From contig NZ_JAPPWA010000002.1 in NCBI RefSeq assembly GCF_029815055.1, forward strand, positions 434,001 to 498,000: DNA of 64,000 bases, written 5' to 3'. Position numbers and translations under genes: made by a program. Each line of letters begins with the position of its first letter. Position 1 is the first letter of the stretch. The notes beneath the pieces are model-generated. The model ran no database searches, had not been told where the DNA came from, and worked only from the letters and a program-made list of their open reading frames with translations. Of this stretch, positions 5,693-60,499 are shown piece after piece. The stretch is from Ignatzschineria sp. RMDPL8A. GTDB lineage: Bacteria; Pseudomonadota; Gammaproteobacteria; Cardiobacteriales; Wohlfahrtiimonadaceae.

Positions 5693-7792
5693 ATGGCTCG
5701 AACTATGCCTATTGAGCGTTATCGTAATATCGGTATTAGCGCACACATTGACGCAGGTAAAACGACGACGTCAGAGCGTATTCTGTATTACACAGGTAGA
5801 AGTCATCGTATCGGGGAAACTCACGATGGTACCGCAACAATGGACTGGATGAAACAAGAGCAAGATCGTGGTATCACTATCACATCTGCTGCAACTACAT
5901 GTTCATGGAGTGGAATGAAGCAACAATTCCCTGAGCATCGCATCAACTTAATTGACACTCCAGGTCACGTTGACTTCACAATCGAAGTTGAGCGTTCTAT
6001 GCGTGTTCTTGACGGTGCGGTAATGGTTTACTGTTCAGTAGGTGGTGTTCAACCTCAGTCAGAGACTGTATGGCGTCAAGCTAACAAGTATGAAGTTCCA
6101 CGTATCGCGTTCATCAACAAAATGGACCGTACTGGTGCTAACTTCCTACGCGTTGTTGAGCAAATGAAAGACCGTTTACGTGCAAACGCTGTACCTATTC
6201 AGCTTCCAATCGGTGCTGAAGACGAGTTCGAAGGTGTGATCGACTTAGTAACAATGAAAGCGATCTACTGGGACGAAGCGTCAATGGGTATGAAGTTTGA
6301 AGAGCGTGATATTCCTGAAGCGCTTTTAGCAGACGCAGAAAACTATCGTTCACAAATGGTAGAAGCTGCAGCTGAAGCATCAGAAGAGTTAATGGAAAAA
6401 TACCTTGAAGAGGGTGAACTTTCAGTAGATGATATTCGTCGCGGTATCCGTGTGCGTACACTTGCCTCTGAAATCGTTCCAGTAACCTGTGGTACAGCGT
6501 TCAAAAACAAAGGTGTTCAAGCACTTCTTGATGACGTAATCTACTATCTTCCTTCTCCTACAGAAGTAAAAGACATTGCGGGTGAATTGCCTGACGGTGA
6601 GCGTGGTGTGCGTATTTCTTCAGACGAAGAGCCATTTTCAGCGCTAGCGTTCAAATTAGCGAACGACCCATTTGTTGGTAACTTAACTTTCGTGCGTGTT
6701 TACTCAGGCGTGATCAAATCAGGTGATTTTGTTTATAACCCGGTTAAAGATCGCCGTGAGCGCGTTGGTCGTTTACTTCAAATGCACTCAAACTCACGTA
6801 GCGAGATTGATGAGATCCGTGCAGGTGATATCGCAGCGATGGTAGGTCTTAAAGACGTTACTACGGGTGATACTCTTTGTGATCAACAAAACATCATCAC
6901 GCTTGAGCGTATGGAGTTCCCTGAGCCAGTAATCTTTGTTGCAATCGAGCCAAAAACAAAAGCTGACCAAGAAAAAATGGGTATGGCTTTAGGTCGATTA
7001 GCGCAAGAAGACCCTTCATTCCGTGTTCGCACAGATGAAGAATCAGGACAAACAATCATCGGTGGTATGGGTGAGCTTCACTTAGAAATCATCGTTGATC
7101 GTCTTAAAGAAGAGTTCAAAGTTGAATGTGCTGTAGGTGCGCCGCAAGTTGCTTACCGTGAAACTATCACCAAATCTGTCGAAGTTGAAGGTAAATTCGT
7201 TCGTCAGTCAGGTGGTCGCGGTCAGTTCGGTCACGTATGGTTACGTTTAGAGCCAAGAGAGCCAGGTGAAGGATACGAGTTCGTTAACGAAATCGTTGGT
7301 GGTGCTGTTCCTCGTGAATACATCCCAGCTGTTGACGCGGGTATCAAAGAGCAAATGGCAAACGGTGTTATCGCGGGCTACCCAGTAGAAGACGTGAAAG
7401 TAACACTTTACGATGGTTCTTACCACGAAGTTGACTCAAGTGAAATGGCGTTCAAAATCGCAGGTTCTATGGGTTTCAAAGCAGGTGCTGCCAAAGCGGG
7501 TCCTGTATTACTTGAGCCGGTTATGCTTGTTGAAGTTGAAACACCTGAAGATTACATGGGTGACGTTATGGGTGATCTTAACCGTCGTCGCGGTAGTCTT
7601 CAAGGTATCGAAGATGCGTATGGTTCTAAGCTCATCAAAGCGGAAGTTCCATTATCTGAAATGTTCAAATATTCGAACTCACTTCGTTCAGCAACTCAAG
7701 GTCGTGCGACCTACTCGATGGAGTTCTTAAAATATCAAGAAACTCCGAAAAACGTTGCTGATGAAATCATCGCTCGTAACAAAGGCGAGTAA
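5693..7792 (+). CDS. fusA: elongation factor G
   Basis: Translocation GTPase, 699 residues. G-domain motifs are visible: P-loop [10 protein letters not shown] (17-26), DTPGH and NKMD, then domain IV with [12 protein letters not shown] and the C-terminal EF-G block. GAGAAGG precedes the ATG. No second fusA is seen in the window. It lies between rpsG and tuf, with a terminator-like hairpin directly downstream. Confidence 0.98.
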
Positions 7793-30226: not shown

Positions 30227-30841
30227 TTACGCCGATTCGGCATCCTGTTTCGGGCATTTTTCTGTGTCGCAGATCTCAGGAAGGAGGAGCGCAAAGAGGT
30301 CATTATCCTCATCAAAAAGCCCTTTTTGCCAATCATTCGGGTTAGAGAGGGAGAGGGTCACAAGATAGGAGTAGATTAAAAAGCCCCGCTGGCACGCTTC
30401 CTTTTTCTCAAAGCCTAAGTTTTCAACGAGTTCGCTGATGTAATCAAGACGAAAGGTATCCACATCGTCCATCATTTTACGCGCCACTTTATCCCGGCGG
30501 GCCCAAGCGCGAATGGCGAGCTCAAAATCCGCTGCCGCTTTCGCAGATTCACCTCGGGTGGGCAGATTAAAGATAATCGCGAGCTGCTCACGGGGGGGAT
30601 AATGGGTATTTTTAAGCCGGCGAATCACCTGATCGGTCGCGCGCGTTTTCCAGTCGACTAAGATTTCTTGCAGAAGCTCATTGCGCCCTTTGAAGTGATG
30701 ATAAAAACTGCCGCGGGTGATGCCGATATTTTGCGCCAATGTCTCGACGCGAACGGAATCGATCCCGCTTTTAATAAGCATTTGTTGACCCGCCTTAATC
30801 CAATCACTCCGTGAGAGCGGGGTCGATGATTGTTTGACCAT
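30227..30841 (-). CDS. TetR/AcrR-family transcriptional regulator
   Basis: 204 residues. N-terminal helix-turn-helix at about 11-60 with VETLAQNIGITRGSFYHHFKG, the typical TetR recognition helix. The C-terminal ligand domain (NLPTRGESAKAAADFELAIRAWARRD) resembles regulators of the TetR_C type but does not reveal a ligand. It points away from the aromatic operon across a 408-nt region with two palindromes at the operon promoter, so it is the best candidate repressor. The same palindrome before the ferredoxin reductase would make that gene part of its regulon. Its own promoter is not clear. Confidence 0.88.
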   Translation of the reverse strand: MVKQSSTPLSRSDWIKAGQQMLIKSGIDSVRVETLAQNIGITRGSFYHHFKGRNELLQEILVDWKTRATDQVIRRLKNTHYPPREQLAIIFNLPTRGESAKAAADFELAIRAWARRDKVARKMMDDVDTFRLDYISELVENLGFEKKEACQRGFLIYSYLVTLSLSNPNDWQKGLFDEDNDLFALLLPEICDTEKCPKQDAESA

Positions 30842-31106
30842 AGCTGATTATCCCTTCGTTGATTTGGCTCTATTTTAGTGGTTTCACCTGCGATTTACCA
30901 TCATGAGCGAGGCTTTTTTTGGGGAGAAATTCCCCATTTGATTGATTGTGCATGATATGAGGCAATGGGGCCTTGATATAGAACAAATTACCCTATTGAG
31001 TCGCTGAAACCCTCGATAAAATCAGGCGCATTATCATTTCATAGATCCCGCTCAAAATCGAATTAATTCCAATATTTTGATTAAAAATCATGCAATAATA
31101 CAAAAA
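30842..31106. other. upstream part of the TetR / aromatic operon intergenic region
   Basis: AT-rich, with no open frame worth calling. It holds an inverted repeat GGGGA-GAAAT-TCCCC (30921-30935) and a dyad TTGAT-TAA-AAATCA (31078-31090) about 70 nt before the predicted operon start. No complete promoter for the TetR gene could be assigned; a TAAAAT lies before it on the minus strand without a good -35. Confidence 0.4.
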
Positions 31107-31149: not shown

Positions 31150-31154
31150 GAAAC

Positions 31155-31170
31155 CATACAGCTCTGTATG
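31155..31170. promoter_or_regulatory. operator O2 of the aromatic operon (perfect palindrome)
   Basis: CATACAG-CT-CTGTATG, perfect 7-bp arms over the predicted transcription start. It is directly followed by TTGAT-CTCG-GTCAA (31171-31184), an FNR-like dyad. The same 16-mer occurs at 45902-45917 before the ferredoxin reductase. Confidence 0.7.
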
Positions 31171-31249
31171 TTGATCTCGGTCAAACGATACAGGGGAATA
31201 AAATAAAAAACAAATAAAGAAGAACGATAAAAACTTGGGAGGAATCACA

Positions 31250-32065
31250 ATGGAAGGGATTGGCAAAAGCCTAATGGCGGCAGACCACAAAACGAATTAT
31301 CACGAAAGTGGTGAGGGCGCACCCCTCTTTTTGCTCCACGGCTCAGGCCCGGGCGTTTCAGGCTGGACCAACTGGTCGAAAACCATCGGTCAATTTGATG
31401 ATAAATGGCGCGTGATTGTGCCCGATATCGCAGGCTTTGGGTTTACTGAATTTAAAGAAGATTCAAAATACAACATCAAGCTCTGGGTGCATCATTTAAT
31501 CGGCATTATGGATGCGCTTGGCATTGAGAAAGCCTCATTTGTAGGTAACTCATTTGGCGGCGCTCTTGCGATCGGATTAGCGCTTTTTGATCCAAGCCGC
31601 GTGGATAAATTGATCCTACTTGGAACACCGGCCGGTGAATTTGTCCAAACGCCTGGATTACGTGGCGCGTGGACTTATGAGCCCTCAGTTGAAAACATGC
31701 GTTCCTTATTGGAGCTCTTCCCATACGATAAATCTTTTATCACCGACGAGCTGGTGAAAAGCCGTTACGAAGCCTCTGCCCGTGAAGGGGCGCAAGAAGC
31801 GTTGCGTAAACTCCTTCCCAAGCCAAAAGATGATGGGGTGACCATGGTTCGTGGCTTCCCGGATACCTCGCTTGTCAACATTCAAGCGCCGACATTAGTA
31901 GTGCACGGCCGTGAAGATAATGTAGTGCCGCCTGAGTGTGGATTACTCCTTGCAAAAACGATTCCAAACGCCGATCTCTACCTCTTTGGCCAATGCGGTC
32001 ACTGGGTACAAACCGAGCAATCTGAGAAGTTTGTATCGATTGTGCGTCAATTCTTGGAGGCATAA
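31250..32065 (+). CDS. meta-cleavage product hydrolase (DmpD/XylF-like)
   Basis: Alpha/beta hydrolase that cuts a carbon-carbon bond in the ring-fission product, releasing 2-oxopent-4-enoate and a carboxylic acid. 271 residues. Oxyanion segment HGSGPG (30-35), nucleophile S101 in GNSFGG, acid D223 in HGREDNVVPP and H251 in GQCGHW. The overall pattern is nearest to 2-hydroxymuconic semialdehyde hydrolases (DmpD, XylF), with BphD/MhpC as other members. GGGAGG lies 8 nt before the ATG at 31250; a TTG 15 nt upstream is rejected. First gene of the operon, three nt before the next. Confidence 0.9.
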   Translation: MEGIGKSLMAADHKTNYHESGEGAPLFLLHGSGPGVSGWTNWSKTIGQFDDKWRVIVPDIAGFGFTEFKEDSKYNIKLWVHHLIGIMDALGIEKASFVGNSFGGALAIGLALFDPSRVDKLILLGTPAGEFVQTPGLRGAWTYEPSVENMRSLLELFPYDKSFITDELVKSRYEASAREGAQEALRKLLPKPKDDGVTMVRGFPDTSLVNIQAPTLVVHGREDNVVPPECGLLLAKTIPNADLYLFGQCGHWVQTEQSEKFVSIVRQFLEA

Positions 32066-32067
32066 TT

Positions 32068-32364
32068 ATGAGCCGTAATGTATTAGAACGAGTGCTGTGG
32101 CACTTGTCGGTGGAGCGTCTTGCGAAAGATCGTTTCCGCGAAGATCCTGAACGCTATCTCTCCCGTTTTGATTTAGATGACGATGAGAAACAGATGGTGC
32201 TTGAGTTTGATGTGGCGGGCTTACAAAAAATCGGGGTGAATCCGATGCTCACCATGGGCTTTTGGCAGGAGATGTCTCCAAATCGCAGTATGCGCCTCTA
32301 TAAAGAGAAATTGGGCGCTGCGGGGAAAGATCTCAATGCGTTTTCAGCGGCGTTAAAGGAGTAG
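32068..32364 (+). CDS. LigA-like small subunit of extradiol dioxygenase
   Basis: A 98-residue helical protein with the LigA-type segment DRFREDPERYLSRFDLDDDEKQMVLEFDVAGLQKIGVNPML. Such proteins (alpha subunit of protocatechuate 4,5-dioxygenase, CarBa) pair with a LigB-type catalytic subunit. Here the next gene, three nt on, is that partner, so the two should form one heteromeric ring-cleavage enzyme. It has no metal-binding residues of its own. GGAGG precedes the start. Confidence 0.82.
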   Translation: MSRNVLERVLWHLSVERLAKDRFREDPERYLSRFDLDDDEKQMVLEFDVAGLQKIGVNPMLTMGFWQEMSPNRSMRLYKEKLGAAGKDLNAFSAALKE

Positions 32365-32367
32365 GAA

Positions 32368-33216
32368 ATGGCGAAAATTGTAGGAGGCTTTTGGGTGCCT
32401 CATGACCCAGTAATGTTTGTAGCGCCGGACGCGCCGGAAAAATCGGTAGCGGATCGTATGTGGAAAGCGTATGAAACCTGCGGAAAACGCATGGCAGAGC
32501 TCGATGCAACGGCTGCGATTATCGTTGGAAATGACCATTACATTCTCTTTGGTACCAACTGTTTACCGCGTTACCTTATTGGGACGGGCGATGTTGATGG
32601 ACCGATCGAGAATTTAAAAGGGCTTGAACGGGGCGTAGTGGAAAATCACCAAGCGCTCGCGCAGCACATTGTCAAACAGGGCGATGTGGAGAATTTCGAC
32701 TGGTCAGTGGCGCGCAGTTTCACCGTTGATCATGCCTTTTCGATCCCGCATCAATATTTAGTCTCTGTGGCGGAAAAAGAGCTAGGCCGTACGATTCCAT
32801 CGATTCCAGTCTACCTTGCAAGCGGCGTGGATCCGTTTATCTCGCTCAATCGGACTCGCGAACTGGGTGAACACATTCGTCGCGCGGTGGAATCATTCCC
32901 AGAGGATGAGCGCGTGGTCATTATCGGCAGTGGCGGGATTAGTCACTGGGTGGGTACCGTTGAGATGGGGAAAGTGGCGGAAGATTTCGACCATGAAATT
33001 CTCGATCTTGGGGTGAACGGCGATCTCGATGGCTTAACCCGCTATTCAAACGAAGAGATTTTAGAGCGCGGTGGCAATGGGGCGATGGAGATTCGTAACT
33101 TTATCTGCGCAATGGCCGCAGTTCCGAATCCAAAAGGTGAAGTGATCGATTATGCGCCGGTGCGCGAGTGGGTCACAGGGCTCGGATTCTTACAGATTCA
33201 CGCCAATGATGCGTAA
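32368..33216 (+). CDS. LigB-type catalytic subunit of extradiol dioxygenase
   Basis: Class III extradiol dioxygenase with non-heme iron; opens a catechol-type ring beside the hydroxyls. 282 residues. Iron ligands by family position: H12 (VPHDP), H57 (GNDHY) and E241 (NGAMEIRN). Acid-base histidines: H122 or H128 (DHAFSIPH) and H193 (GSGGISHW). The pairing with a LigA-like gene resembles LigAB, CarBaBb and AmnBA rather than single-subunit MhpB. Which catechol it takes is unknown. GGAG lies 7 nt before the ATG. Confidence 0.88.
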   Translation: MAKIVGGFWVPHDPVMFVAPDAPEKSVADRMWKAYETCGKRMAELDATAAIIVGNDHYILFGTNCLPRYLIGTGDVDGPIENLKGLERGVVENHQALAQHIVKQGDVENFDWSVARSFTVDHAFSIPHQYLVSVAEKELGRTIPSIPVYLASGVDPFISLNRTRELGEHIRRAVESFPEDERVVIIGSGGISHWVGTVEMGKVAEDFDHEILDLGVNGDLDGLTRYSNEEILERGGNGAMEIRNFICAMAAVPNPKGEVIDYAPVREWVTGLGFLQIHANDA

Positions 33217-33334
33217 GTCGGCCATTAATGGTCATCAATGATTAATAAATAATCAGAATCACAATAAAAATAATAATGCCGTCGCATCAGGCGGCAAAAC
33301 AGTTGTAAAAGCTTAAGCTGTAAAGGGGAGAACA

Positions 33335-33685
33335 ATGTCTAAAGTTTTTTTATGCAGTGCCGAGGAATTAGGTCCAAATTCACTTAAAAAAGTGTCCAAT
33401 GAAGCGGTCGGCGATCTATGTGTTTACAATCTCGATGGCGAATTTTTCGCAACATCAGATATGTGTACCCACGCAACGGCATCACTCGCCGATGGGTATA
33501 TCGAAGATGATCTTATCACTTGCCCAGTCCATTGGGGCCAATTTGATATTCGTACCGGTGAAGCGGTGGCGTTTCCCTGCGAGAAGCATCTGCGCACCTT
33601 TAAGATTTATGTGGAAGATGGCGAGGTTTTTGCGGATTTAGACGCTCATGCCGATGCCGCCGTTGAAGCCAATATTGAGCCGTAA
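33335..33685 (+). CDS. Rieske [2Fe-2S] ferredoxin of ring-hydroxylating dioxygenase
   Basis: Electron carrier between the reductase (45834-44629) and the terminal oxygenase (next two genes). 116 residues. Cluster ligands C44 and H46 (CTH) and C63 and H66 (CPVHW) have BphF/HcaC-like spacing. An acidic, Ala-rich tail (DAHADAAVEANIEP) is longer than in many relatives. AGGGGAG lies before the ATG. The 118-nt gap before it contains five AAN triplets in a row (33263-33277) and a TGATTA/TAATCA dyad. Confidence 0.93.
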   Translation: MSKVFLCSAEELGPNSLKKVSNEAVGDLCVYNLDGEFFATSDMCTHATASLADGYIEDDLITCPVHWGQFDIRTGEAVAFPCEKHLRTFKIYVEDGEVFADLDAHADAAVEANIEP

Positions 33686-33781
33686 TAAGGTCGGCTCATC
33701 ACTTAAATTGAGCTGACACAAACGCGCCCACCACACTTTAAAAATATAATAACGGGCGCTCATACTAAAAACGATACCGAT

Positions 33782-33796
33782 AATAACAACAATAAG
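33782..33796 (+). promoter_or_regulatory. AAN-triplet tract in the leader of the dioxygenase alpha gene
   Basis: AAT-AAC-AAC-AAT-AAG, 35 nt before the ATG. It resembles the A-R-N / catabolite-activity motifs bound by the distal face of Hfq. Similar tracts occur before other genes of the cluster. Confidence 0.35.
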
Positions 33797-33831
33797 CATG
33801 TTATAAAAAATACGATTTGGAGGAAATAGAT

Positions 33832-35175
33832 ATGGCGAATCAATCGAGATTACGTCCTTTAGAGGCGACTCCCGCACTAACGGAGTTAGATCGTCTCTGC
33901 GATATGGAAGAGGGGCGTTTAGCTGGAAAGATTTTTTGGGATCAAGACATTTATGAGCAGGAGCTAGAGAAGATTTTCGCACGCTGCTGGCTTTTTATCG
34001 CACATGAATCACAAATCCCGAATGCAGGCGATTATCTCACCACCACCATGGGTGAAGATGAGGTGTTAGTGGTGCGTCAACGTGACGGATCGATCAAAGC
34101 GTTTTTAAATGCCTGTCCTCACCGCGGTAACAAAGTCTGTTTTGCGGAAGCGGGCAACGCGCGCGGGTTTATCTGTAACTATCACGGCTGGTCTTTTGGG
34201 CAAGATGGGGCGCTTCGCGGTGTTCATGAGTCGGATATTTATGAGCAGAGCGATTTTGATAAAACTCAGCACGGCCTTCGTTCCGTGGCGCAGATCGATT
34301 CCTATAAAGGATTAGTCTTTGCCACTTTTGACCCAGAAGCCCCTTCATTAGAAGAGTATTTAGGGGAGATTACCTGGTATCTCGATGCGATTTTAGATAA
34401 CGATGAAGGCGGCACAGAGTTTGTGGGCGGCTGTATTCGTTCAACGATCGAGTGTAACTGGAAATTAGCGGCGGAAAACTTCGTTGCAGACATTTTACAC
34501 GCCGGCTGGACGCATGACTCAGCAGCGCGCGCAATGCTTGGCGGCCCTGTGGCAAAAGTGAGTGACTTCCCAGAATCCTATCAAGTGAACTGGAACGGTC
34601 ACGGCTATGAATTTGCCCGCGACTTTGTTGGAAACGCAGCGGTACTTGGCGAGCGTGCGATCAACAAATATCTTCACTTACATCGCCCGAAAGCGGAAGA
34701 ACGTTTAGGTGAATTCCGTGCGTCGATGATTGGTGCGGTGTCATCCTGTACTGTGTTCCCGAACTTCTCATTTTTACCGGGGCAAAATACGATGCGCGTT
34801 TGGCAACCTCGTGGCCCCAATAAAATTGAGCTCTTTACTTGGGTGCTCGTCAATAAAAATGCCCCCGAAGAGATTAAAGAAAAATGGCGTAAAGGGGCGA
34901 TGATGACCTTCTCTCCGACCGGCGTTTTCGAGATGGATGACGGTGAGAACTGGGAATATTGTACCAAGACAAGCCGTGGCGCAGTAACGCGTTATCAGGA
35001 TCTTTTCATCGGACTTGGAATGAATACCCGTGTCGATGACACCGAACTTCCAGGCAACGTCTTTACCGGTCAAATTAACGAAGCGAATGCTCGTGCGTAC
35101 TATCAGCGCTGGAAAGATCTGCTCGAAGCGGATAGCTGGAAAGATGTACCGGATCGCAATGGCAAAATGAAGTAG
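33832..35175 (+). CDS. ring-hydroxylating dioxygenase alpha subunit (HcaE/BphA-like)
   Basis: Catalytic subunit that adds both atoms of O2 to an aromatic ring, giving a cis-dihydrodiol. 447 residues. Rieske ligands C95/H97 and C115/H118 (CPHR, 17 residues, CNYHGW). Mononuclear iron site N216-x3-D220-x2-H223-x4-H228, and a DDGENW segment (369-374) where the carboxylate ligand of this family lies. By reading, it follows E. coli HcaE (phenylpropionate dioxygenase) through much of its length, for example LFIAHESQIP and GEITWYLDAILD. Substrate cannot be read off. GGAGG lies 8 nt before the ATG; an upstream TTG at 33817 is rejected. Confidence 0.93.
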   Translation: MANQSRLRPLEATPALTELDRLCDMEEGRLAGKIFWDQDIYEQELEKIFARCWLFIAHESQIPNAGDYLTTTMGEDEVLVVRQRDGSIKAFLNACPHRGNKVCFAEAGNARGFICNYHGWSFGQDGALRGVHESDIYEQSDFDKTQHGLRSVAQIDSYKGLVFATFDPEAPSLEEYLGEITWYLDAILDNDEGGTEFVGGCIRSTIECNWKLAAENFVADILHAGWTHDSAARAMLGGPVAKVSDFPESYQVNWNGHGYEFARDFVGNAAVLGERAINKYLHLHRPKAEERLGEFRASMIGAVSSCTVFPNFSFLPGQNTMRVWQPRGPNKIELFTWVLVNKNAPEEIKEKWRKGAMMTFSPTGVFEMDDGENWEYCTKTSRGAVTRYQDLFIGLGMNTRVDDTELPGNVFTGQINEANARAYYQRWKDLLEADSWKDVPDRNGKMK

Positions 35176-35184
35176 GAGGCTCCC

Positions 35185-35712
35185 ATGACAGATTCAAATA
35201 GACAGTATGCTGATATCGATGCAACCCGCGAAGTGGAACGCTTTTTATTAAAAGAGGCGCGTCTGCTTGATTGGGAATGTTGGGATGAATGGCTCGGGAC
35301 GCTTTCGGAAGAGATTCATTACTGGATGCCCGGGATTGAAAATCGTCGCCGTGAAGATAAATTAGGGCAATATACCCGCGAACACATGGCCTATTTCGAT
35401 GATGGTCTGCGTGATTTAAATCGTCGGATTGAGCGCTTTAAGCAACCGTCGGCGTGGGCAGAAAACCCACAAACTCGTAACGTACATATCGTCACCAACA
35501 TTGAGGTCTTTAATGGCGAAAATGAGGGTGAATATGAGGTGCATTCATGCATCTATAACGTGCGTAGCCGTGGGCTTGATGAGGAATATAAGCTTGCGGG
35601 CCGTCGTGAGGATATTATCCGCCGCGAAGAGGGTGAATTAAAGCTCTATCGCCGTAAGATTTTAATCCCGAACGCGTCGCTTTTATTCAAAAACCTCAAC
35701 ACCTTCCTATAG
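35185..35712 (+). CDS. ring-hydroxylating dioxygenase beta subunit
   Basis: Structural small subunit (175 residues) of the alpha3beta3 oxygenase, with an NTF2-like fold. Seen: EVERFLLKEARLLDWECWDEWL and the C-terminal LYRRKILIPNASLLFKNLNTFL typical of HcaF/BphE. Nine nt after alpha and nine nt before the diol dehydrogenase. Start GGAGG(N)6ATG. Confidence 0.93.
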   Translation: MTDSNRQYADIDATREVERFLLKEARLLDWECWDEWLGTLSEEIHYWMPGIENRRREDKLGQYTREHMAYFDDGLRDLNRRIERFKQPSAWAENPQTRNVHIVTNIEVFNGENEGEYEVHSCIYNVRSRGLDEEYKLAGRREDIIRREEGELKLYRRKILIPNASLLFKNLNTFL

Positions 35713-35721
35713 GAGGTAATG

Positions 35722-36528
35722 ATGGGATGGTTAGAAGGCTATAGCGCGCTTGTAACCGGTGGCACCGGTGGCATTGGTAGTGCCATCGTGCGCCGCTACG
35801 TTAAAGAGGGTGCGAAAGTGGGCGTGCTTGCACGAAATGAGGCGGAGCTTGCCAAATTAAAAGAGGAACTCGGCGATTCGATCATCACCATTTGCGGAGA
35901 TGTGACCAAGGCTGAGGATAATGCGCGCGCCGTTTCTGAAACGGTCAAGGCATTCGGTAAACTCGATACTTTTGTGGCAAACGCCGCGGTATTTGATTAT
36001 TTTACTCGCCTTGAAAAGATTGCCCCTGAGGAGTTTGAGGCAAGTTTCCAAAAGCTCTTTTCGGTTAACGTTCAAGGCTATCTGCTCGGGGCGCAAGCGG
36101 CGATTCCAGAGCTGCGTAAAACGAAAGGATCGATGATCTTTACGCTCTCCAATAGCTCGTTTTATGCCGGCGGTGGCGGGATTTTATATGTCACCTCAAA
36201 GCATGCAGTTGTGGGCCTTGTGCGTCAGCTCGCCTTTGAACTCTCGCCCCATATTCGCGTCAATGGCGTGGCTCCCGGCGCGACGGATACGGCGATGTCG
36301 AGCTTAGATGGGCTTAATCAAAACAGTGTGCCGCTCAATGAGCTGCCCGATTTTGAGAAAAATGCTGCGATGGCGGTACCGCTTCAAAAAGTGGCACAAC
36401 CAGAAGAGCATACTGGGCACTATGTGCTGCTCGCGTCGCGGGAAAATTCAGCGCTCACTACAGCCACCATTATTCACAGTGATGGCGGGTGGGAAGTGCG
36501 AAAACCGGGCGTTCATAATCGCTCGTAA
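35722..36528 (+). CDS. cis-dihydrodiol dehydrogenase (short-chain dehydrogenase)
   Basis: NAD-dependent enzyme that re-aromatises the cis-diol to a catechol. 268 residues. Nucleotide loop TGGTGGIG (12-19), catalytic S143, Y156 and K160 in FTLSNSSFYAGGGGILYVTSK. The run IFTLSN..YxGGGGxLYxxSKHAxxGLxRQLAxEL is shared with BphB/HcaB. The ATG at 35722 is used because AGGAGG ends 5 nt before it; the ATG at 35719 is only 2 nt away. Fourth oxygenase-related gene in a row, so the upper pathway is complete except for the reductase. Confidence 0.92.
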   Translation: MGWLEGYSALVTGGTGGIGSAIVRRYVKEGAKVGVLARNEAELAKLKEELGDSIITICGDVTKAEDNARAVSETVKAFGKLDTFVANAAVFDYFTRLEKIAPEEFEASFQKLFSVNVQGYLLGAQAAIPELRKTKGSMIFTLSNSSFYAGGGGILYVTSKHAVVGLVRQLAFELSPHIRVNGVAPGATDTAMSSLDGLNQNSVPLNELPDFEKNAAMAVPLQKVAQPEEHTGHYVLLASRENSALTTATIIHSDGGWEVRKPGVHNRS

Positions 36529-36578
36529 CGGGCAAAATATCGATATTAAAATTAACAAAGAAAAGTGAGGCAATGGCG

Positions 36579-37571
36579 ATGACAGAGCGGGATTTACTTC
36601 AATCATTAACGCTTCCAGTGATGGTGGCGCCGATGTTTCTGGTGTCAGGGCCGGAGCTGCTCCTTGCGTCGTGTCGTGCGGGGGTGATTGGCAGTTTACC
36701 AACGCCGAACGCGCGGGATTTAACGATTTTAACCAGTTGGCTCGATCAGATTCAAGAGGGCATTGCCACGATCAAAAAAGAGCGTGGTGAAGGTGGTGAG
36801 CGTAATGAGAGAGATGAGAATGATCAAAATGTGCCCCTTTGGCTCTTAAATATGATCGTCCATCGCACCTATGACCGATTTGATGCGGAGCTTGAGCTTG
36901 TTAAGCAATATCAGCCACCGCTTGTAACTACGGCGCTCGGTTCGCCAAAACGAGTGGTTGCCGATGTGCATGCCTATGGCGGAAAAGTCTTTGCCGATGT
37001 TACTAATGTGACGCTCGCGAAAAAGGCGATCGATGCCGGCGTGGATGGGCTGATTTTAGTTTGTCATGGCGCAGGCGGGCACACAGGGCTTCATAATCCC
37101 TTTGCCTTTATTGCTGAGGTGCGGAAGTTTTGGGATGGCTACATTGGGCTTTCCGGCGGGATTATGAATGGTCGCGATCTTCATGCTTGCAAGGTACTCG
37201 GCGCGGATTTTAGCGTGATGGGCACCCGATTTATCGGCGCAAAAGAGAGTTTGGTGGTGGATGATTATCGCACCATGCTGGTGGAATCGGATTTAACGGA
37301 TGTAATCACAAGCGATAAAGTGAGCGGCGTTCCGGCGAATTGGCTTAAAAAGTCGTTAGAGAAAAGCGGCGTTTCGATTGAGACCCTGCCGGGGAAAGCG
37401 GCGGATTTTTCAGGCAATATCGCTAACGATAAAAAAGCGTGGCGGGATATCTGGTCAGCTGGTGAAGGGGTTGGACAAATCACAACGTTTCAAACGGTGT
37501 CAGAGATTGTAGCGACACTTTTGGCTGAATATGAGGCGAGCTTAGGAAAAAAGGGACGTTCACCTGCATAA
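36579..37571 (+). CDS. nitronate monooxygenase-family FMN protein
   Basis: FMN-dependent TIM-barrel enzyme of the 2-nitropropane dioxygenase family, about 330 residues. Seen: VMVAPMFLVSGPELLLASCRAGVIGSLP at the start, GLILVCHGAGGHTG and VMGTRFIGAKES near the FMN phosphate. Characterised members oxidise nitronates, and others are of unknown activity. The histidine in CHGAGGH matches the family motif region. Not a usual member of a meta-cleavage operon, so it may hint at the substrate or act in detoxification. GAGG lies 8 nt before the ATG at 36579; the ATG at 36573 is too close. Confidence 0.82.
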   Translation: MTERDLLQSLTLPVMVAPMFLVSGPELLLASCRAGVIGSLPTPNARDLTILTSWLDQIQEGIATIKKERGEGGERNERDENDQNVPLWLLNMIVHRTYDRFDAELELVKQYQPPLVTTALGSPKRVVADVHAYGGKVFADVTNVTLAKKAIDAGVDGLILVCHGAGGHTGLHNPFAFIAEVRKFWDGYIGLSGGIMNGRDLHACKVLGADFSVMGTRFIGAKESLVVDDYRTMLVESDLTDVITSDKVSGVPANWLKKSLEKSGVSIETLPGKAADFSGNIANDKKAWRDIWSAGEGVGQITTFQTVSEIVATLLAEYEASLGKKGRSPA

Positions 37572-37766
37572 TTTGATCGCCACCTAGAAGATTTTAGAGT
37601 ATTGTAATTTATACAAGTTAATAAAATATAATATTAACAAAGATTAATTAAGATAAATAAAGATCTAAGAAGATCTATAAGAAAACCAAAGAACAATAAA
37701 AACAAATCGACGCTCATTGTAAGCGTGACAGAGATAAGTAAAACCAAAAAAGGTAGGTAGGGGGAC
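37572..37766 (+). other. AT-rich leader before the hydratase gene
   Basis: 195 nt without an ORF. Contains a small palindrome TTGTA-ATTTA-TACAA (37602-37616), a TATAAT (37627-37632) with a poorly spaced TTGTAA before it, and the AAN tract AAC-AAT-AAA-AAC-AAA (37692-37706). It may hold an internal promoter or be an unstructured mRNA leader. Confidence 0.35.
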
Positions 37767-38549
37767 ATGATTTTAGATCATTTCAAAAAGGCAGCGGAGC
37801 AACTCGCGACCGCGCGTGCAAATCGCACCACCTGTGGGCGCATTTCCGATCAATATGGCATTCATACCATGGATGATGCGTATCGCGTTCAAGAGATCAA
37901 TACTGAGCTTGCGCTCAAAAACGGTCGCCGCATTGTGGGCCGTAAAATTGGGCTCACCTCAAAAGTGGTGCAAGAGCAACTTGGCGTCGATCAACCGGAC
38001 TTTGGCATGCTCTATGCCGATATGGAAGTGGGCGATGGCGAAGCGATCGATTCAAGCCGTCTAGTCCAGCCGAAAGTGGAAGGGGAGATTGCCTTTGTGT
38101 TAAAGCGCGATCTGCCAACGGAAGATACGAGTCTTGCGGAGCTCATTAGCTCGATCGATTACGTGCTCCCGGCGCTTGAAGTGGTGGATACGGTGATCGA
38201 TAAGTGGGATTTTACCCTTGCCGATACCATCGCCGATAACGCCTCAAGCGGGCTCTACGTCCTCGGTAAAACACCGATCACCCTTGAGTCGCTCAACCTT
38301 GAATTAGAGGGCATGCTGCTCTATAAAAATGGTGAGCTTGCCTCGATGGGCGTTGGGGCGGCGTGTCTTGGCAATCCGCTCAATGCTTGCCTCTGGCTTG
38401 CACGCACCATGTCGCAAAAGGGCCGTCCATTACTCTGTGGCGATGTTCTCCTCTCAGGAGCGCTCGGACCGATGGTCAATGTGGCAAAGGGCGATAAGAT
38501 TTCAATGAAATTGACCCGTCTTGGTGAAGTGAGCTGCGAATTTATCTAA
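37767..38549 (+). CDS. dmpE: 2-oxopent-4-enoate hydratase (2-keto-4-pentenoate hydratase)
   Basis: Adds water to 2-hydroxypenta-2,4-dienoate to give 4-hydroxy-2-oxovalerate. 260 residues, the family length (DmpE, MhpD, XylJ, BphH). Seen: GRKIGLTSKVVQEQLGVDQPDFG, the metal-binding acidic pair in KVEGEIAFVL, and the C-terminal GDVLLSGALGPMVNVAKGD. Oxalocrotonate decarboxylase is a sister family, but there is no tautomerase or dehydrogenase branch here, so hydratase is the better reading. GTAGGTAGGGGG lies before the ATG. Confidence 0.9.
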   Translation: MILDHFKKAAEQLATARANRTTCGRISDQYGIHTMDDAYRVQEINTELALKNGRRIVGRKIGLTSKVVQEQLGVDQPDFGMLYADMEVGDGEAIDSSRLVQPKVEGEIAFVLKRDLPTEDTSLAELISSIDYVLPALEVVDTVIDKWDFTLADTIADNASSGLYVLGKTPITLESLNLELEGMLLYKNGELASMGVGAACLGNPLNACLWLARTMSQKGRPLLCGDVLLSGALGPMVNVAKGDKISMKLTRLGEVSCEFI

Positions 38550-38767
38550 GGGGTTTATCTACGATCATTTGATCGAATTAGATTCGATAGCAGTGCGGGC
38601 TAAATAACCGCCAATATCAATATAAAAAGAACAATTACTTACCTTTGCGATAAAGGGAAGCCGGGATTTTCACGCCTAAAAAAGGGGAAATCTCTCTTAC
38701 GCTGGACTGTAAAAGCACACAAAACGATAAGAATAAAAAACCACAAAAATGATTGGAGGAAGCAATT
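38550..38767 (+). other. leader before the CoA-ligase gene
   Basis: About 218 nt without an ORF. The distal part is A-rich, with AAC-GAT-AAG-AAT-AAA-AAA (38723-38740) before GGAGGAA. No terminator is present, so transcription probably continues from the hydratase gene. Nothing else was recognised. Confidence 0.35.
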
Positions 38768-40690
38768 ATGTGTAGGACATTGGGCCGGAATCGGAGTTTA
38801 GTGTCTGCAACGGTACTGAATAATTTTCAGCAACGCCATCACGCGGCAGAGAGTGAGCGAGCCGATCTCGCCCCTGCAGCGGTCATGTGCGAATACCGTG
38901 CCGATGGAAGTTTTATTATGCGATCCCCAGAAGAGCTGCAACCTTACGCCCGTTGCGTTGGCGAGTGGCTCGACTTTTGGGCAGCGGAGAAGCCAGATCA
39001 CACGTTTCTAGCGGAGCGTGAGGGGGACGGCTGGCGTACGCTTAGCTATAAAGAAGTGCGTGAGCAGATTGGACGGATTGCGCAAGGTCTTCTCGATCTT
39101 AAGATCCCGACGTGCCATCCGATTGTGTTTCTCTCCGGAAATGGAATCAGCCAAGCGCTTATGACTTTAGCGGCGTACCATGTCGGTATTCCTGTGGCAA
39201 CGATCTCCGCTGCCTACTCTTTAAGACCGAAAGAATTTAGTCGTCTTAATTGGATCTTAAATACGCTTGAACCCTCGGCGGTATTTGTTGATGATGGCGC
39301 AAAATATGAAAATGCCCTTCGCGGTGTGGAAGTCGATAGCCGTCTCATTATCGAGCATAACGCAGAGCTCTTCCCCCAAGCGGTCACCTTTGATTCGCTC
39401 TTAAATGCAAAAGAGACGGATGAGGTTTCTGACTACTTTGAGCAAATTACCCCCAATACGGTGGCGCGTTATCTGATGACCTCAGGTTCAACCGCCGATC
39501 CGAAATTTGTGGTGCACACACAACGCATTCTCTGCTCAAATCAGCAGGCGATCGCGCAGTGCTGGCGCTTTGTGGAGCAAAAAGAGATTGTAGTGGTGGA
39601 TTGGCTTCCGTGGAGTCACGTTTTTGCCTCAAACCATAACTTTAATATCGTGCTGCGTAATGGCGGAAGTCTCTATATTGATGATGGAATGGCGACCGAT
39701 CAGCTCATTGATCGCACCGTTGAAAACATCAAAATGGTGAAACCTTCGCTCTACTTTAACGTACCGCGCGGTTATGAATTATTGCTCCCCTATCTTGAAA
39801 ATGATCCGGAGTTTGCCAAAGCATTCTTTGGGCGTTTAGAGCTTCTCTTCTATGCAGGGGCGGCGCTTCCAAAAAATGCGTGGGACCGCTTAGTCACGGT
39901 TTCAGATACCGTTCGCGATAAGCCTCTATTTGTGGCAACTGAGTGGGGCACAACGGAAACAGCACCAGTGATTACCAACGTTCACTACACTTTGGATGGC
40001 CCGGGGAATATCGGGCTGCCTGTTCCCGGCGTTGAGGTGAAATTTGTTCCCACCGAGGATAAATTTGAGATGCGCGTTCGCGGTGAGTCGATCTTTAATC
40101 GTTATTTAGGCGACCCGTCGATTACTCAAAAAGCCTTTGACGAGGAAGGGTTTTATCACACCGGCGATGCGGGACATCTCGCGAATCCCGAGCGCCCTGA
40201 GCAAGGCATTATCTTCGATGGCCGAATCACTGAGGACTTTAAGCTCAATACTGGAACGTGGGTTTCAGCCGGGGTGATGCGCCCGCTCTTAGTGGATGCC
40301 TTCTCGCCTTATGCGCTCGATTTTGTCATTACCGGACACGATCAGGAATATGTGAGTGCGATGATGTTTGCAACGAAATATCTCCACGAACTCGCAGACG
40401 ATCCTGAGATGGCGCTCTCGATGGAAGATCTCTCCGATCACCCGAAAGTGCGCACCGTGTTACTTGAGTGCATGAGTACGTTCCAAAAGGACAATCCTGC
40501 GTCATCACGCCATATTAAACGCCTCATTATTCTCGATCATCCGCCCTGCTTGGAATCGGGTGAGACGACGGATAAAGCGTATATTAATCAGCGGAAAACC
40601 TTAGCGCGCCGCCGTGATCAAGTGGAAAAACTCTACACCAAGCAACCGGGCCGAGAAGTGATTCGTCTGTCGGAACGTGTACGCAATTAA
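38768..40690 (+). CDS. AMP-dependent acyl-CoA ligase, feruloyl-CoA-synthase-like
   Basis: 640 residues of the ANL superfamily, which activate carboxylic acids via an adenylate to CoA thioesters. P-loop MTSGSTADPK (237-246), aromatic/A5 region TEWGTTETAPV, GFYHTGDAGH, and a C-terminus CLESGETTDKAYINQRKTLARR that matches the Fcs-type ending with GE-TDK-YINQR. The first 45 residues (to the CEYRADGS block) are weakly conserved. It may activate the aromatic substrate, or the side-chain acid released by the hydrolase. GGAGGAA lies 8 nt before the ATG at 38768; an upstream TTG is rejected. Confidence 0.85.
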   Translation: MCRTLGRNRSLVSATVLNNFQQRHHAAESERADLAPAAVMCEYRADGSFIMRSPEELQPYARCVGEWLDFWAAEKPDHTFLAEREGDGWRTLSYKEVREQIGRIAQGLLDLKIPTCHPIVFLSGNGISQALMTLAAYHVGIPVATISAAYSLRPKEFSRLNWILNTLEPSAVFVDDGAKYENALRGVEVDSRLIIEHNAELFPQAVTFDSLLNAKETDEVSDYFEQITPNTVARYLMTSGSTADPKFVVHTQRILCSNQQAIAQCWRFVEQKEIVVVDWLPWSHVFASNHNFNIVLRNGGSLYIDDGMATDQLIDRTVENIKMVKPSLYFNVPRGYELLLPYLENDPEFAKAFFGRLELLFYAGAALPKNAWDRLVTVSDTVRDKPLFVATEWGTTETAPVITNVHYTLDGPGNIGLPVPGVEVKFVPTEDKFEMRVRGESIFNRYLGDPSITQKAFDEEGFYHTGDAGHLANPERPEQGIIFDGRITEDFKLNTGTWVSAGVMRPLLVDAFSPYALDFVITGHDQEYVSAMMFATKYLHELADDPEMALSMEDLSDHPKVRTVLLECMSTFQKDNPASSRHIKRLIILDHPPCLESGETTDKAYINQRKTLARRRDQVEKLYTKQPGREVIRLSERVRN

Positions 40691-40737
40691 TCAGAAATAG
40701 AGACGGGAGGCGGGCAATCTTCCTTCCGTTTCGAAGT

Positions 40738-40752
40738 AAAAACAACAAAAAC
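40738..40752 (+). promoter_or_regulatory. AAN-triplet tract before the acetaldehyde dehydrogenase gene
   Basis: AAA-AAC-AAC-AAA-AAC, 20 nt before the ATG and next to GGTTAAAGGAG. A possible Hfq distal-face site that could cover the ribosome site. Confidence 0.35.
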
Positions 40753-40772
40753 AGAGGTTAAAGGAGTGACGT

Positions 40773-41720
40773 ATGGTAGAGAAAGTACGTGCAGCGATTA
40801 TCGGATCGGGCAATATTGGCACCGACCTGATGATCAAAATTTTAGAGCAAGGGGAAAATGTCGCGATCGATACTGTCGTCGGAATTGATCCCGATTCAGA
40901 TGGATTGGCACGAGCGCGCAGTTTAGGCGTAAATACCACGCACGAAGGGGTCGAGGGCTTAGTTAAAATGCCTAGCTTTGAGTCGATCGACATTGTGTTT
41001 GACGCCACTTCAGCAGGCGCGCATCTCTTTAATGAGCGCATTTTACGCGAGCATAAAAAAGAGATTCAACTGATTGACTTAACGCCCGCGGCGATTGGTC
41101 CGTACTGCGTTCCGGTAGTCAATCTTGAGGAGCATCTTGATAAGAAAAACGTCAACATGGTGACCTGTGGTGGTCAAGCGACGATTCCAATTGTCCATGC
41201 CGTTTCAAGTGTGACCAAGGTGCATTACGCAGAGATTGTTGCTTCAATTAGTAGCCGCTCCGCAGGGCCTGGAACGCGCGCTAATATCGATGAATTTACC
41301 GAAACCACTTCCAAAGCGATTGAGATGATCGGTGGGGCAACCAAAGGGAAAGCGATTATCGTCTTAAATCCTGCCGAGCCACCATTACTCATGCGTGATA
41401 CGGTCTATTGCTTTACCGATAATGCCGATCAGGAAGCGATTCGCACGGCGATTGAAAAACGCGTGGCAGAGGTGAATCAATATGTGAAAGGCTATCGCTT
41501 AAAGCAAGACGTTCAGTTTGAGGTGATTCCGGAAGATGCACCGCTTAATCTCCCTGAGATTGGCTATAAATCAGGCCTTAAAGTGGCGGTTTATCTTGAA
41601 GTGGAAGGCGCCGCTCATTATCTGCCTGCGTATGCTGGAAACCTCGATATTATGACCTCAGCCGCGCTTGCGACCGCTGAGAAAATCGCGACCAATTTAC
41701 ACACCCAACAGGAGGCCTAA
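40773..41720 (+). CDS. dmpF: acetaldehyde dehydrogenase, acylating
   Basis: Converts acetaldehyde, NAD and CoA to acetyl-CoA, working as a channelled complex with the aldolase encoded next. 315 residues. Nucleotide-binding GSGNIG (11-16) and catalytic C132 in VTCGGQAT. The DmpF/MhpF/BphJ family length is about 305-315. AAGGAG lies 6-7 nt before the ATG. The stop is two nt before the aldolase ATG. Confidence 0.95.
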
Positions 41721-41722
41721 TC

Positions 41723-42742
41723 ATGAGCGTACCTGAAAAACTCTATATCTCTGATGTGACGCTTCGCGATGGCAGCCATGCGATTCGTCATCAATATTCG
41801 ATTGAAAATGTTCAAGCCATTACCAAAGCGCTCGATGATGCCAATGTCGATAGCATCGAAGTGGCTCACGGTGATGGATTACAAGGATCGAGTTTTAACT
41901 ACGGATTTGGCAAGCACTCGGATCTTGAGTGGATTGAAGCGGCGGCCGATGTAGTTAAAAACGCCAAAATTGCAACGCTCCTCCTCCCCGGGATTGGCAC
42001 CACGCACGACCTCAAAAATGCGTATAACGCAGGGGCGCGTGTGGTGCGCGTTGCAACCCATTGTACCGAAGCGGACGTATCGGCTCAGCATATCAATTAT
42101 GCCCGTGAGCTTGGTATGGATACGGTCGGATTTTTAATGATGAGCCATATGACAACGCCGGAAAATCTCGCCAAACAAGCGAAATTGATGGAAGGCTACG
42201 GCGCAACGTGCGTTTATGTGGTCGATTCCGGCGGGGCGATGACGATGGATAATGTCCGCGATCGCGTCCGTGCGGTACGGGATATTTTATTGCCGGAAAC
42301 GGAGATCGGCGTGCATGCGCATCATAACTTATCGCTCGGGGTTGCGAACTCGGTAGTGGCCGTTGAAGAGGGTGCAAACCGTGTGGACGCAAGTTTAGCG
42401 GGAATGGGCGCTGGTGCAGGAAATGCGCCGCTTGAGGTCTTTATTGCGGTAGCCAATAAACTTGGCTGGAAGCACAATTCAGATCTTTATACCTTGATGG
42501 ATGCCGCTGACGATATCGTTCGTCCCCTTCAAGATCGCCCCGTTCGTGTTGACCGTGAAACCCTCGCGCTTGGTTATGCGGGCGTTTATTCAAGCTTCCT
42601 CCGTCATTCGGAAGTGGCGGCTGAACGTTACGGGCTTAAAACCGTCGATATTTTGCTTGAACTTGGCAAACGTAAGATGGTGGGCGGGCAAGAGGATATG
42701 ATCGTCGACGTGGCGCTCGATCTTCTCAATCGTCAAGGCTAA
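41723..42742 (+). CDS. dmpG: 4-hydroxy-2-oxovalerate aldolase
   Basis: Splits 4-hydroxy-2-oxovalerate into pyruvate and acetaldehyde, the last step of meta-cleavage. 339 residues, a metal-dependent TIM barrel of the DmpG/MhpE/BphI class. [10 protein letters not shown] (11-20) with R15 and D16, and metal histidines H198/H200 in GVHAHHN. The C-terminal part forms the channel to the dehydrogenase. Last gene of the operon; a terminator lies 150 nt on. Ribosome site AGGAGG overlaps the end of dmpF. Confidence 0.96.
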
Positions 42743-44628: not shown

Positions 44629-45834
44629 TTAACGCAAGGTCATTACATCAATTGAGGTGTCGGCTAATTTTTCCGGATCAAGCACCATTTTGCGTTTAAA
44701 CCACATGCGTCCAATGCCGATCACTTTTGGGTCATTGATCGCTACAATGGAGCGGACGCGATTTTCACTATCGAGGTGAATATAGGCTTTTTGCGTCTCG
44801 CCACTGTCGCGAATAATGAGCGTGCACTCCTCATCGATGGGAAGGCTCATAATCTGAATGTTATGATCGTATTGATCCGACCACACCCACGGAATTTCCC
44901 CATAGGCCGGCGGATTTTTCCCCATAATCGCTTTCGCGGCGATCATCGCTTGATATTGTGCGTTGGCCCAGGATTGCGTACAAAAGCCGACAACGGGGTG
45001 AATCGCCACATCGCCTGCAGCATAGATATTCGGGTCAGACGTTTGGCCAAACTCATCGACGATAATCCCGCCTTTAATCTCAAGCCCCGCATTTTCCGCA
45101 AGTTCTGTAGCAATCTCAGCACCCGCCCCAACAAGGACGATATCGGCATTCACCTCATCGCATTCCGTTGTTAAAGTCAGCGTGCCATCGGCATTTTCTG
45201 CAAGATCGATCGCCCCGCAATTAAGGTGAATGTTGGTCCCTTTTCCGGTATGAAGAGTGTAGAGATACTCAGAAACCTCAGGCGGTGCACTTCGGCCACA
45301 TAGACGCGGTGCAAGCTCAAAAAGATCCACATTAAGCCCAAGTTTATTCGCCGTTGCGGCCACTTCCAGCCCAATCCAGCCGCCACCAATAATCGCTAAG
45401 CGTTTTCCGGCTTTAAAAGCCGCTTGCAGTTTTAACGAATCATCAATGGTGCGAAGGGTATGCACATTTTCAAAGGCAGTCCAATTGGCATTTGGCACAC
45501 GAGGACGGCTACCGGTGGCTAAAATGAGGCGATCATAGGGGAGTGTTGTCCCATCATTTAAGGTGACGGTTTGCGCATCACGATCGATCGCTTCTGCGCG
45601 CTTGGGTTTATGCCAATCGATGTTGAGCGCGTCGATCACCTCGGGTGAAAAAAACGATAAAATCTCAGGGGATTCCTCGCCGGCGAGCACACTTTTTGAG
45701 AGAGGCGGGCGCTCGTAAAAGATCTTTTCTTCATCAGAAATAATGGAGAGCGTTCCCTCAAAACCCTCTTTACGCAAGGTCTGCGCCGCAAATGCCGCCG
45801 CTTGACCGCCCCCGATAATGACAATGGATTCCAT
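44629..45834 (-). CDS. ferredoxin reductase of the ring-hydroxylating dioxygenase
   Basis: FAD/NADH oxidoreductase (BphG/HcaD/TodA type) that feeds the Rieske ferredoxin encoded at 33335. 401 residues. FAD-binding VIIGGGQAAAFAAQTLR near the N-terminus, LATGSRPRVPN, NAD-binding IIGGGWIGLEVAATANKLG, and the second FAD motif YAAGDVAIHP. The start at 45834 follows GAGGAGGAG by 5 nt; the longer ORF to 45849 includes that site. It is apart from and opposite to the operon it serves, but its promoter carries the identical operator. Confidence 0.92.
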   Translation of the reverse strand: MESIVIIGGGQAAAFAAQTLRKEGFEGTLSIISDEEKIFYERPPLSKSVLAGEESPEILSFFSPEVIDALNIDWHKPKRAEAIDRDAQTVTLNDGTTLPYDRLILATGSRPRVPNANWTAFENVHTLRTIDDSLKLQAAFKAGKRLAIIGGGWIGLEVAATANKLGLNVDLFELAPRLCGRSAPPEVSEYLYTLHTGKGTNIHLNCGAIDLAENADGTLTLTTECDEVNADIVLVGAGAEIATELAENAGLEIKGGIIVDEFGQTSDPNIYAAGDVAIHPVVGFCTQSWANAQYQAMIAAKAIMGKNPPAYGEIPWVWSDQYDHNIQIMSLPIDEECTLIIRDSGETQKAYIHLDSENRVRSIVAINDPKVIGIGRMWFKRKMVLDPEKLADTSIDVMTLR

Positions 45835-45886: not shown

Positions 45887-45900
45887 TTGATTTATATCAA
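45887..45900. promoter_or_regulatory. FNR-like dyad in the reductase leader
   Basis: TTGAT-TTAT-ATCAA, a perfect match to the FNR/ANR consensus TTGAT-N4-ATCAA. It directly abuts the CATACAG palindrome, downstream of the predicted transcription start. Confidence 0.5.
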
Positions 45901-45901
45901 C

Positions 45902-45917
45902 CATACAGCTCTGTATG
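45902..45917. promoter_or_regulatory. operator O3 before the ferredoxin reductase
   Basis: CATACAG-CT-CTGTATG, identical to O2 at 31155-31170; flanking C and G extend the arms to 8 bp. It covers the predicted start of the leftward transcript. Confidence 0.7.
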
Positions 45918-45920
45918 GTT

Positions 45921-60167: not shown

Positions 60168-60253
60168 TATACAGATGTCAGCGTGTGGGTCATAAATCTT
60201 GGATGCGCCTGCATAACAATAACGATAATGAAACAAAATAAGTGAGAAAAACC

Positions 60254-60499
60254 ATGGCAAAAATGCAATCCTTACAAGAACCTTTTTTAAATGCGCTTCG
60301 TAAAGAGCGTGTTCCTGTGTCGATCTTTTTAATCAATGGAATTAAATTACAAGGTCAAATCGAATCATTTGACCAATTTGTCATTTTACTGCGCTCAAAT
60401 GTGAGCCAAATGATCTATAAACATGCGGTTTCAACCATCGTGCCAGCGCGCAATATTTCGATGGATGATGGCCGTGATGATAATGGAGATGAAGCGTAA
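60254..60499 (+). CDS. hfq: RNA chaperone Hfq
   Basis: Hexameric Sm-like protein that pairs small RNAs with mRNAs. 81 residues from [34 protein letters not shown]; the core through [12 protein letters not shown] is nearly as in E. coli. The C-terminal tail is only about 15 residues and acidic ([12 protein letters not shown]), against about 35 in E. coli. The ATG at 60254 is family-conserved; a GTG at 60242 is upstream. The leader carries A-rich triplets (60215-60240) typical of Hfq binding, suggesting autoregulation. hflX follows as usual. Confidence 0.97.

Follow-up and report, generated by a model that had tools for sequence, protein, structure and literature searches.

A-triplet tracts in the leaders of aromatic catabolic genes of an Ignatzschineria genome are candidate Hfq sites

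What is the role of the runs of A-A-N triplets that precede one gene start after another in the aromatic pathway of Ignatzschineria sp. RMDPL8A? The question is raised by a window of 64 kb (the whole stretch of DNA that was analysed, with its own numbering used for coordinates below) from the 2.18-Mb genome of this bacterium. An original prediction had listed six such tracts before genes of a meta-cleavage pathway, and had interpreted them as sites for the distal face of Hfq, which prefers A-R-N triplets, and for Hfq/Crc catabolite repression. Our analysis favors, with a probability of roughly 0.57, the reading that the tracts are Hfq distal-face sites located just 5' of the Shine-Dalgarno sequence of most separately spaced aromatic cistrons, and that they would define a genome-wide, Crc-independent post-transcriptional catabolite-control regulon. 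Nearly all separately spaced gene starts of the window pathway, and many in the paa and hpa clusters of the same genome, are preceded by AAN runs. All six listed tracts are present, although the one before the ligase gene is interrupted by a GAT, and a seventh, before the hydrolase gene, was absent from the list. The CA motif was defined as AANAANAA, and a leader (100 nt) was scored positive when it contained at least two. The pathway and its tracts are as follows.

31250..42742, + strand: twelve genes of the meta-cleavage pathway
31202..31224, + strand: leader of the meta-cleavage hydrolase gene; broken tract AATAAAAAACAAATAAAGAAGAA, three CA motifs, ends 25 nt 5' of the start codon
33263..33277, + strand: leader of the Rieske ferredoxin gene; AAT AAA AAT AAT AAT, AAN run of 5, three CA motifs
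33782..33796, + strand: leader of the ring-hydroxylating dioxygenase alpha subunit gene; AAT AAC AAC AAT AAG, AAN run of 5, three CA motifs, ends 36 nt 5' of the start codon
37689..37706, + strand: leader of the 2-keto-4-pentenoate hydratase gene; AAN run of 6 (AAC AAT AAA AAC AAA at 37692-37706), four CA motifs
38624..38635, + strand: second, more distal tract of the CoA ligase gene; AAN run of 4, 132 nt 5' of the start codon
38723..38740, + strand: leader of the acyl-CoA synthetase (ligase) gene; AAC GAT AAG AAT AAA AAA, AAN series interrupted by the GAT, two CA motifs, ends 28 nt 5' of the start codon at 38768
40738..40752, + strand: leader of the acetaldehyde dehydrogenase gene; AAA AAC AAC AAA AAC, AAN run of 5, three CA motifs, ends 21 nt 5' of the start codon
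45862..45879, - strand: leader of the ferredoxin reductase gene; AAN run of 5 (minus strand 45876-45861, AAC AAT AAA AAA TAA A), four CA motifs

The background for these tracts was taken from 20 stretches of 20 kb and then from a second 20 stretches, with genes called by a simple codon model of our own; the final set adds extra paa and hpa regions. The gene caller missed many ribosomal-protein genes, so that some background leaders hold coding sequence, and limiting the background to gaps of 500 or 300 nt made no material difference. The AAN runs in the six listed leaders measure 5, 5, 6, 4, 5, and 5 triplets, versus a mean of 1.86 in 250 other sampled leaders, 10 of which contain a run of at least 4. 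With the second 20 stretches included, such runs were found in 22 of 448 other leaders on the coding strand and in 5 of 448 on the opposite strand; in the final background set they were found in 21 of 495, and the complementary NTT runs in 5 of 495. The tract signal is thus confined to the coding strand. All six listed leaders are positive for CA motifs, compared to 21 of 495 background leaders (p 1.4e-8) or, with gaps of at most 300 nt only, 14 of 355. The six were chosen because they bear tracts; a held-out test is given below.

The original prediction had proposed comparing the triplet density with that in leaders of unrelated genes and in shuffled sequence; the densities proved unequal, and the idea survives this check. 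The six leaders contain 19 CA motifs, where dinucleotide shuffles gave a mean of 6.1 and a maximum of 14 (200 shuffles), and the paa and hpa leaders together contain 31 (shuffle mean 7.3). The background leaders hold 107, versus a shuffle mean of 92 and a maximum of 112 (30 shuffles), indicating that a triplet period is present in the catabolic leaders and undetectable elsewhere. Among leaders with at least 38% A, 12 of 19 catabolic ones are positive versus 10 of 98 in the background (p 2.2e-6), so the signal is more than A-richness.

The sites are concentrated on catabolic and uptake genes: positive leaders make up 7 of 9 in the window cluster, 4 of 4 in the phenylacetate cluster paa (paaK, paaA, paaB, and paaE, named by NCBIfam), and 6 of 12 in hpa, versus the 21 of 495 in the background, which suggests a regulon across three aromatic pathways of one genome. 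High-scoring leaders in the first background set belong to the oxygenase and the reductase of 4-hydroxyphenylacetate hydroxylase, a semialdehyde dehydrogenase, and HpaA, and further to the proline symporter PutP, a metabolite:H+ symporter, surA, tpx, fructose-bisphosphatase, and one unnamed protein. Since the paa and hpa clusters were noticed through their tracts, genes fetched afterwards were counted separately, and 5 of these 10 are positive (p 5.2e-5). Gene sets fixed a priori from E. coli K-12, outside the three clusters, gave 2 of 5 positive catabolic orthologues (putP and dadX, the leader of the dadX-like gene bearing a tract) versus 0 of 18 housekeeping genes, including ribosomal and RNA-polymerase genes (p 0.04, a small sample). 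A double A-triplet tract was also observed approximately 185-230 nt upstream of malate synthase A (aceB), the first gene of a glyoxylate-bypass group (L028:13011-13056).

The position of the tracts is just 5' of the Shine-Dalgarno sequence, with 12-61 nt (median 30, n=21) between tract end and start codon. The six listed leaders, with AAN runs of 4-6 that end 20-61 nt 5' of the start codon, have at least three consecutive A-R-N triplets near the ribosome-binding site (RBS). Third letters within the runs are T in 42 cases, A in 28, C in 25, and G in 12. In predicted folds of the six leaders, the tracts are mostly unpaired and often lie beside a GC-rich hairpin: the ferredoxin tract is unpaired between hairpins, the acetaldehyde dehydrogenase tract lies directly 3' of a stable hairpin, and the reductase tract sits in the loop of an AACGG/CCGUU hairpin.

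A gene for the proposed regulator was said to lie in the window, and this was borne out.

60254..60499, + strand: hfq, Pfam Hfq 101 bits, the sole copy in the genome

Its product aligns to residues 1-73 of E. coli Hfq (E 2.5e-33), with close similarity over residues 1-69 and changes that include Y25F, K47R, and N48S. Position 25 presumably stacks on adenine in the distal site, and phenylalanine retains the ring. The leader of hfq itself (approximately 60200-60253) contains ATAACAATAACGATAATGAAACAAAATAAG, a possible autoregulatory Hfq site as judged from its letters. The Crc half of the original prediction failed, as the genome encodes three Exo_endo_phos proteins and Crc is not among them. The best of them is ExoIII (E 6e-77 to Exodeoxyribonuclease III, 1e-13 to Crc), which was also the only match when P. 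aeruginosa Crc was used as query (28% identity). The same holds for 15 of the 16 other members of the bacterial family included in this search. A second homologue, at 37-40% identity, is present in G002 and in members of other bacterial families; it is as close to PDB 2jc5, which we take to be a Neisseria AP endonuclease, as to Crc, and was not called Crc. The Hfq distal-face half of the original prediction remains the best fit to the tracts and would extend to two more aromatic pathways.

Repression in P. aeruginosa is exerted mainly by Hfq, which acts via A-rich sites at the RBS, with Crc as an auxiliary (PMC4063720). As PMC4063720, PMC8395346, and PMC5815094 describe, Hfq represses catabolic genes through such RBS sites, and CrcZ, an RNA of 407 nt with six A-rich stretches (PMC4063720), relieves this repression. 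The present case resembles the Hfq-Crc/CrcZ system of Pseudomonas and Azotobacter in its consecutive A-R-N triplets near the RBS of catabolic and transport genes, in the presence of Hfq, and in an intergenic RNA candidate of approximately 400 nt with several A-rich stretches. It differs in that no Crc gene and no CbrB-like regulator were found (only the strongest of five sigma-54-activator matches was examined for the latter), and in that the sites lie 12-61 nt 5' of the start codon on most separately spaced cistrons per operon. The candidate RNA, unlike CrcZ, has no family-level similarity and a different gene neighborhood. The strongest Sigma54_activat match (235 bits) looks, from its sequence and context, like a PilR-like regulator adjoining a histidine kinase; the second scores 61.7 bits in a 469-aa frame, and the three others are weaker.

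E. coli, to our knowledge, has no Crc. There, RecB expression is fine-tuned post-transcriptionally by Hfq, as studied with Y25D and K56A mutants (PMC12342828); Hfq would thus act without Crc in both cases, but RecB is one target and no catabolic regulon. The A. baumannii RNA sRNA99 has several AAN motifs and was likened by its authors to CrcZ, but has three motifs, and the available part of PMC12802169 gives no link to a catabolic regulon. A literature search returned no report of Hfq catabolite repression without Crc among the titles listed, which is no proof of absence, and a search on the genus together with Hfq returned nothing.

Control of the tract-bearing genes by Hfq is likely, repression by Hfq is somewhat likely, and control by a decoy RNA is possible. 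With a preferred carbon source present, free Hfq hexamers would cover the tracts and impede the loading of ribosomes onto each cistron; upon its exhaustion, a decoy RNA in which several hairpin loops are A-rich would remove Hfq, and the pathway would then be translated. A candidate for such an RNA was found in a scan for CA clusters that covered 917 kb, with coding status by our own gene calls.

G000:C2:20980-20570 (L060:1070-1480), - strand: intergenic RNA candidate of 411 nt, A-tracts in hairpin loops and a terminator-like 3' stem

This locus is the richest 300-nt stretch in CA clusters (5 clusters, 12 motifs, non-coding by these calls), and the genome-wide pattern search and weak CrcZ scores coincide there, at approximately 20.6-21.0 kb. 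Its predicted fold has -121.6 kcal/mol (z -4.5); AAAAACAAAAACAAAUA, ACCUAAUAAAAACAAUAA, and GAACAAUAAGAAUAAA lie in hairpin loops, and at the 3' end a strong stem precedes a run of five U. Judged by its modeled structure, the candidate resembles a CrcZ-type decoy of independent origin, and it may be such a convergent decoy or nothing of the kind. For the CrcZ family (Rfam RF01675), only weak scattered matches and none above the cut-off were found in the genome, and the window contains no match to Rfam families. Synteny did not reveal the candidate elsewhere: in five genomes of the Ignatzschineria-type genus, the same flavoprotein neighbor has no such array.

A wider version of the Hfq reading must be held more tentatively, as we consider it possible but somewhat improbable: a Crc-less, Hfq-only catabolite-repression regulon with a site per separately spaced cistron, covering three aromatic pathways, the glyoxylate bypass, and uptake genes, and with an independently evolved CrcZ-like decoy that carries A-triplets in hairpin loops. 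Catabolite repression through Hfq is known from Pseudomonas and Azotobacter, where Crc is the co-repressor. A regulon built on the same site grammar in a lineage in which neither crc nor crcZ was detected would set the core (Hfq, A-triplets, and decoy) apart from the Pseudomonas-specific parts, and a naturally Crc-free system would allow asking whether Hfq alone suffices. For genome scans, it would supply a rule, namely, coding-strand A-A-N triplets in a fixed zone 5' of catabolic genes.

Several findings weigh against Hfq control through these tracts. The tracts are further upstream than in the amiE model, whose sites are within the RBS. On the a priori list, the putA, gabP, and gltL orthologues are without a tract, and tracts are also present on non-catabolic leaders, e.g., surA and tpx (NCBIfam) and metH and panB (read from sequence). 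Conservation is low: in three Ignatzschineria-group genomes, 4 of 21 leaders of the seven tract-bearing genes are positive (hydratase and ligase, in two genomes), as is 1 of 4 hpa-oxygenase leaders of four relatives. As for the candidate RNA, it has no sigma-70-like match directly upstream, a search of 30 relatives did not recover it, and with 16 and 12.6 bits it scores far under the 95-bit threshold of the Rfam CrcZ model. An overlapping 83-codon open reading frame (ORF) also counts against it, as does its partial presence in a sister metagenome-assembled genome (MAG; labelled Lysobacteraceae, L125), in which a contig end holds no more than the final 205 nt of the query.

Could the tracts serve another purpose? 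The rpoS leader, with its (AAN)4, is a precedent for Hfq docking, and the tracts may be landing pads of this type that bring base-pairing small RNAs (sRNAs), in which case specific sRNAs would be needed and the effect could be activating. The motif and its upstream placement are the same, and stable hairpins stand beside several tracts; however, the three pathways and the unrelated transporters have only A-triplets in common, and, as many cistrons have a site of their own, a global repressor fits better than one sRNA per leader, which makes the landing pads unlikely. Even less probable are A-rich ribosome standby or translation-enhancer sequences that would aid the 30S subunit (protein S1) and be unrelated to Hfq control. 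Such sequences would explain the placement just 5' of a strong Shine-Dalgarno sequence and the unpaired state of the A-runs in predicted folds, but not why none of the 18 housekeeping leaders is positive, nor a triplet period above the expectation from A-richness.

The width of the tract-holding intercistronic gaps (118, 146, 195, and 82 nt), flanked by hairpins, would fit unpaired spacers that serve RNase cleavage or set how stable each cistron is; the E. coli paa/hca/mhp genes are mostly packed, with gaps of -19 to 26 nt and two wider ones of 100 and 577 nt, and 1 of their 10 leaders scores (paaX, with an AAN run of 4 and two CA motifs). An A-A-N period is unexpected of cleavage sites, though, and tracts are also found at operon fronts (hydrolase and reductase), so that we regard this explanation as quite improbable. 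Least credible of all is chance or low-complexity sequence in AT-rich intergenic DNA: leaders are generally AT-rich, and 72 of 495 background leaders have at least one CA motif, but enrichment, strand asymmetry, functional bias, and shuffles disfavor it, and chance and plain A-richness were rejected on the dinucleotide shuffles and the A-matched control.

The origin of the tracts was followed in related clusters. The closest record with the same cluster is L125 (97.5% DNA identity over 16 kb), followed by Ignatzschineria records with 91% identical alpha subunits. In L125, the tracts show 1 difference in 160 nt versus 40 in 1364 nt of the remaining intergenic DNA, which is not significant (p 0.059). 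Alpha leaders were compared for 34 of 73 loci, leaving out L125 and 38 others; 33 are without a CA motif, and the remaining one, from Pseudomonas sp. TH10, has two. The alpha tract thus did not arrive with its gene, and the idea that the tracts were inherited together with the gene cluster was rejected. The ferredoxin and acetaldehyde dehydrogenase genes almost abut their upstream neighbors in the three Ignatzschineria-group clusters, and these leaders therefore look gained or lost between genera. The paaA gene was found in 1 of 25 relatives, where its start is uncertain. In G007, of the Ignatzschineria group, 10 of 226 leaders are positive with no clear catabolic bias, including kynureninase (read from sequence); parts of such a regulon may thus exist there with other members. 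The leader of a DUF485 (yjcH-like)-actP-like acetate permease pair in G007, named from our own ORF reading (L213, approximately 7386-7600, - strand), contains six CA clusters with 11 motifs in 300 nt.

The order of the twelve pathway genes is hydrolase, LigA, LigB, ferredoxin, alpha, beta, SDR, NMO-like, hydratase, CoA ligase, acetaldehyde dehydrogenase, and aldolase, with HcaE-like dioxygenase alpha and beta subunits. The reductase is encoded separately.

44629..45834, - strand: ferredoxin reductase gene (HcaD/AndAa-like)

The hydrolase and reductase promoters share a palindrome, CCATACAGNNCTGTATG(G), at 31154-31171 and 45901-45918, with a weaker copy at 31106 and no further copies in the window at up to 3 mismatches (chance 0.74); it is probably the operator of the TetR-family gene at 30227-30841. 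An FNR/ANR-like box, TTGATNNNNATCAA, named after what we take to be the FNR/ANR consensus, is present at 45887-45900 and 31171-31184 (one exact, one with one mismatch). Each box directly adjoins a palindrome, just 5' of the A-tract, an arrangement that suggests oxygen control of both promoters.

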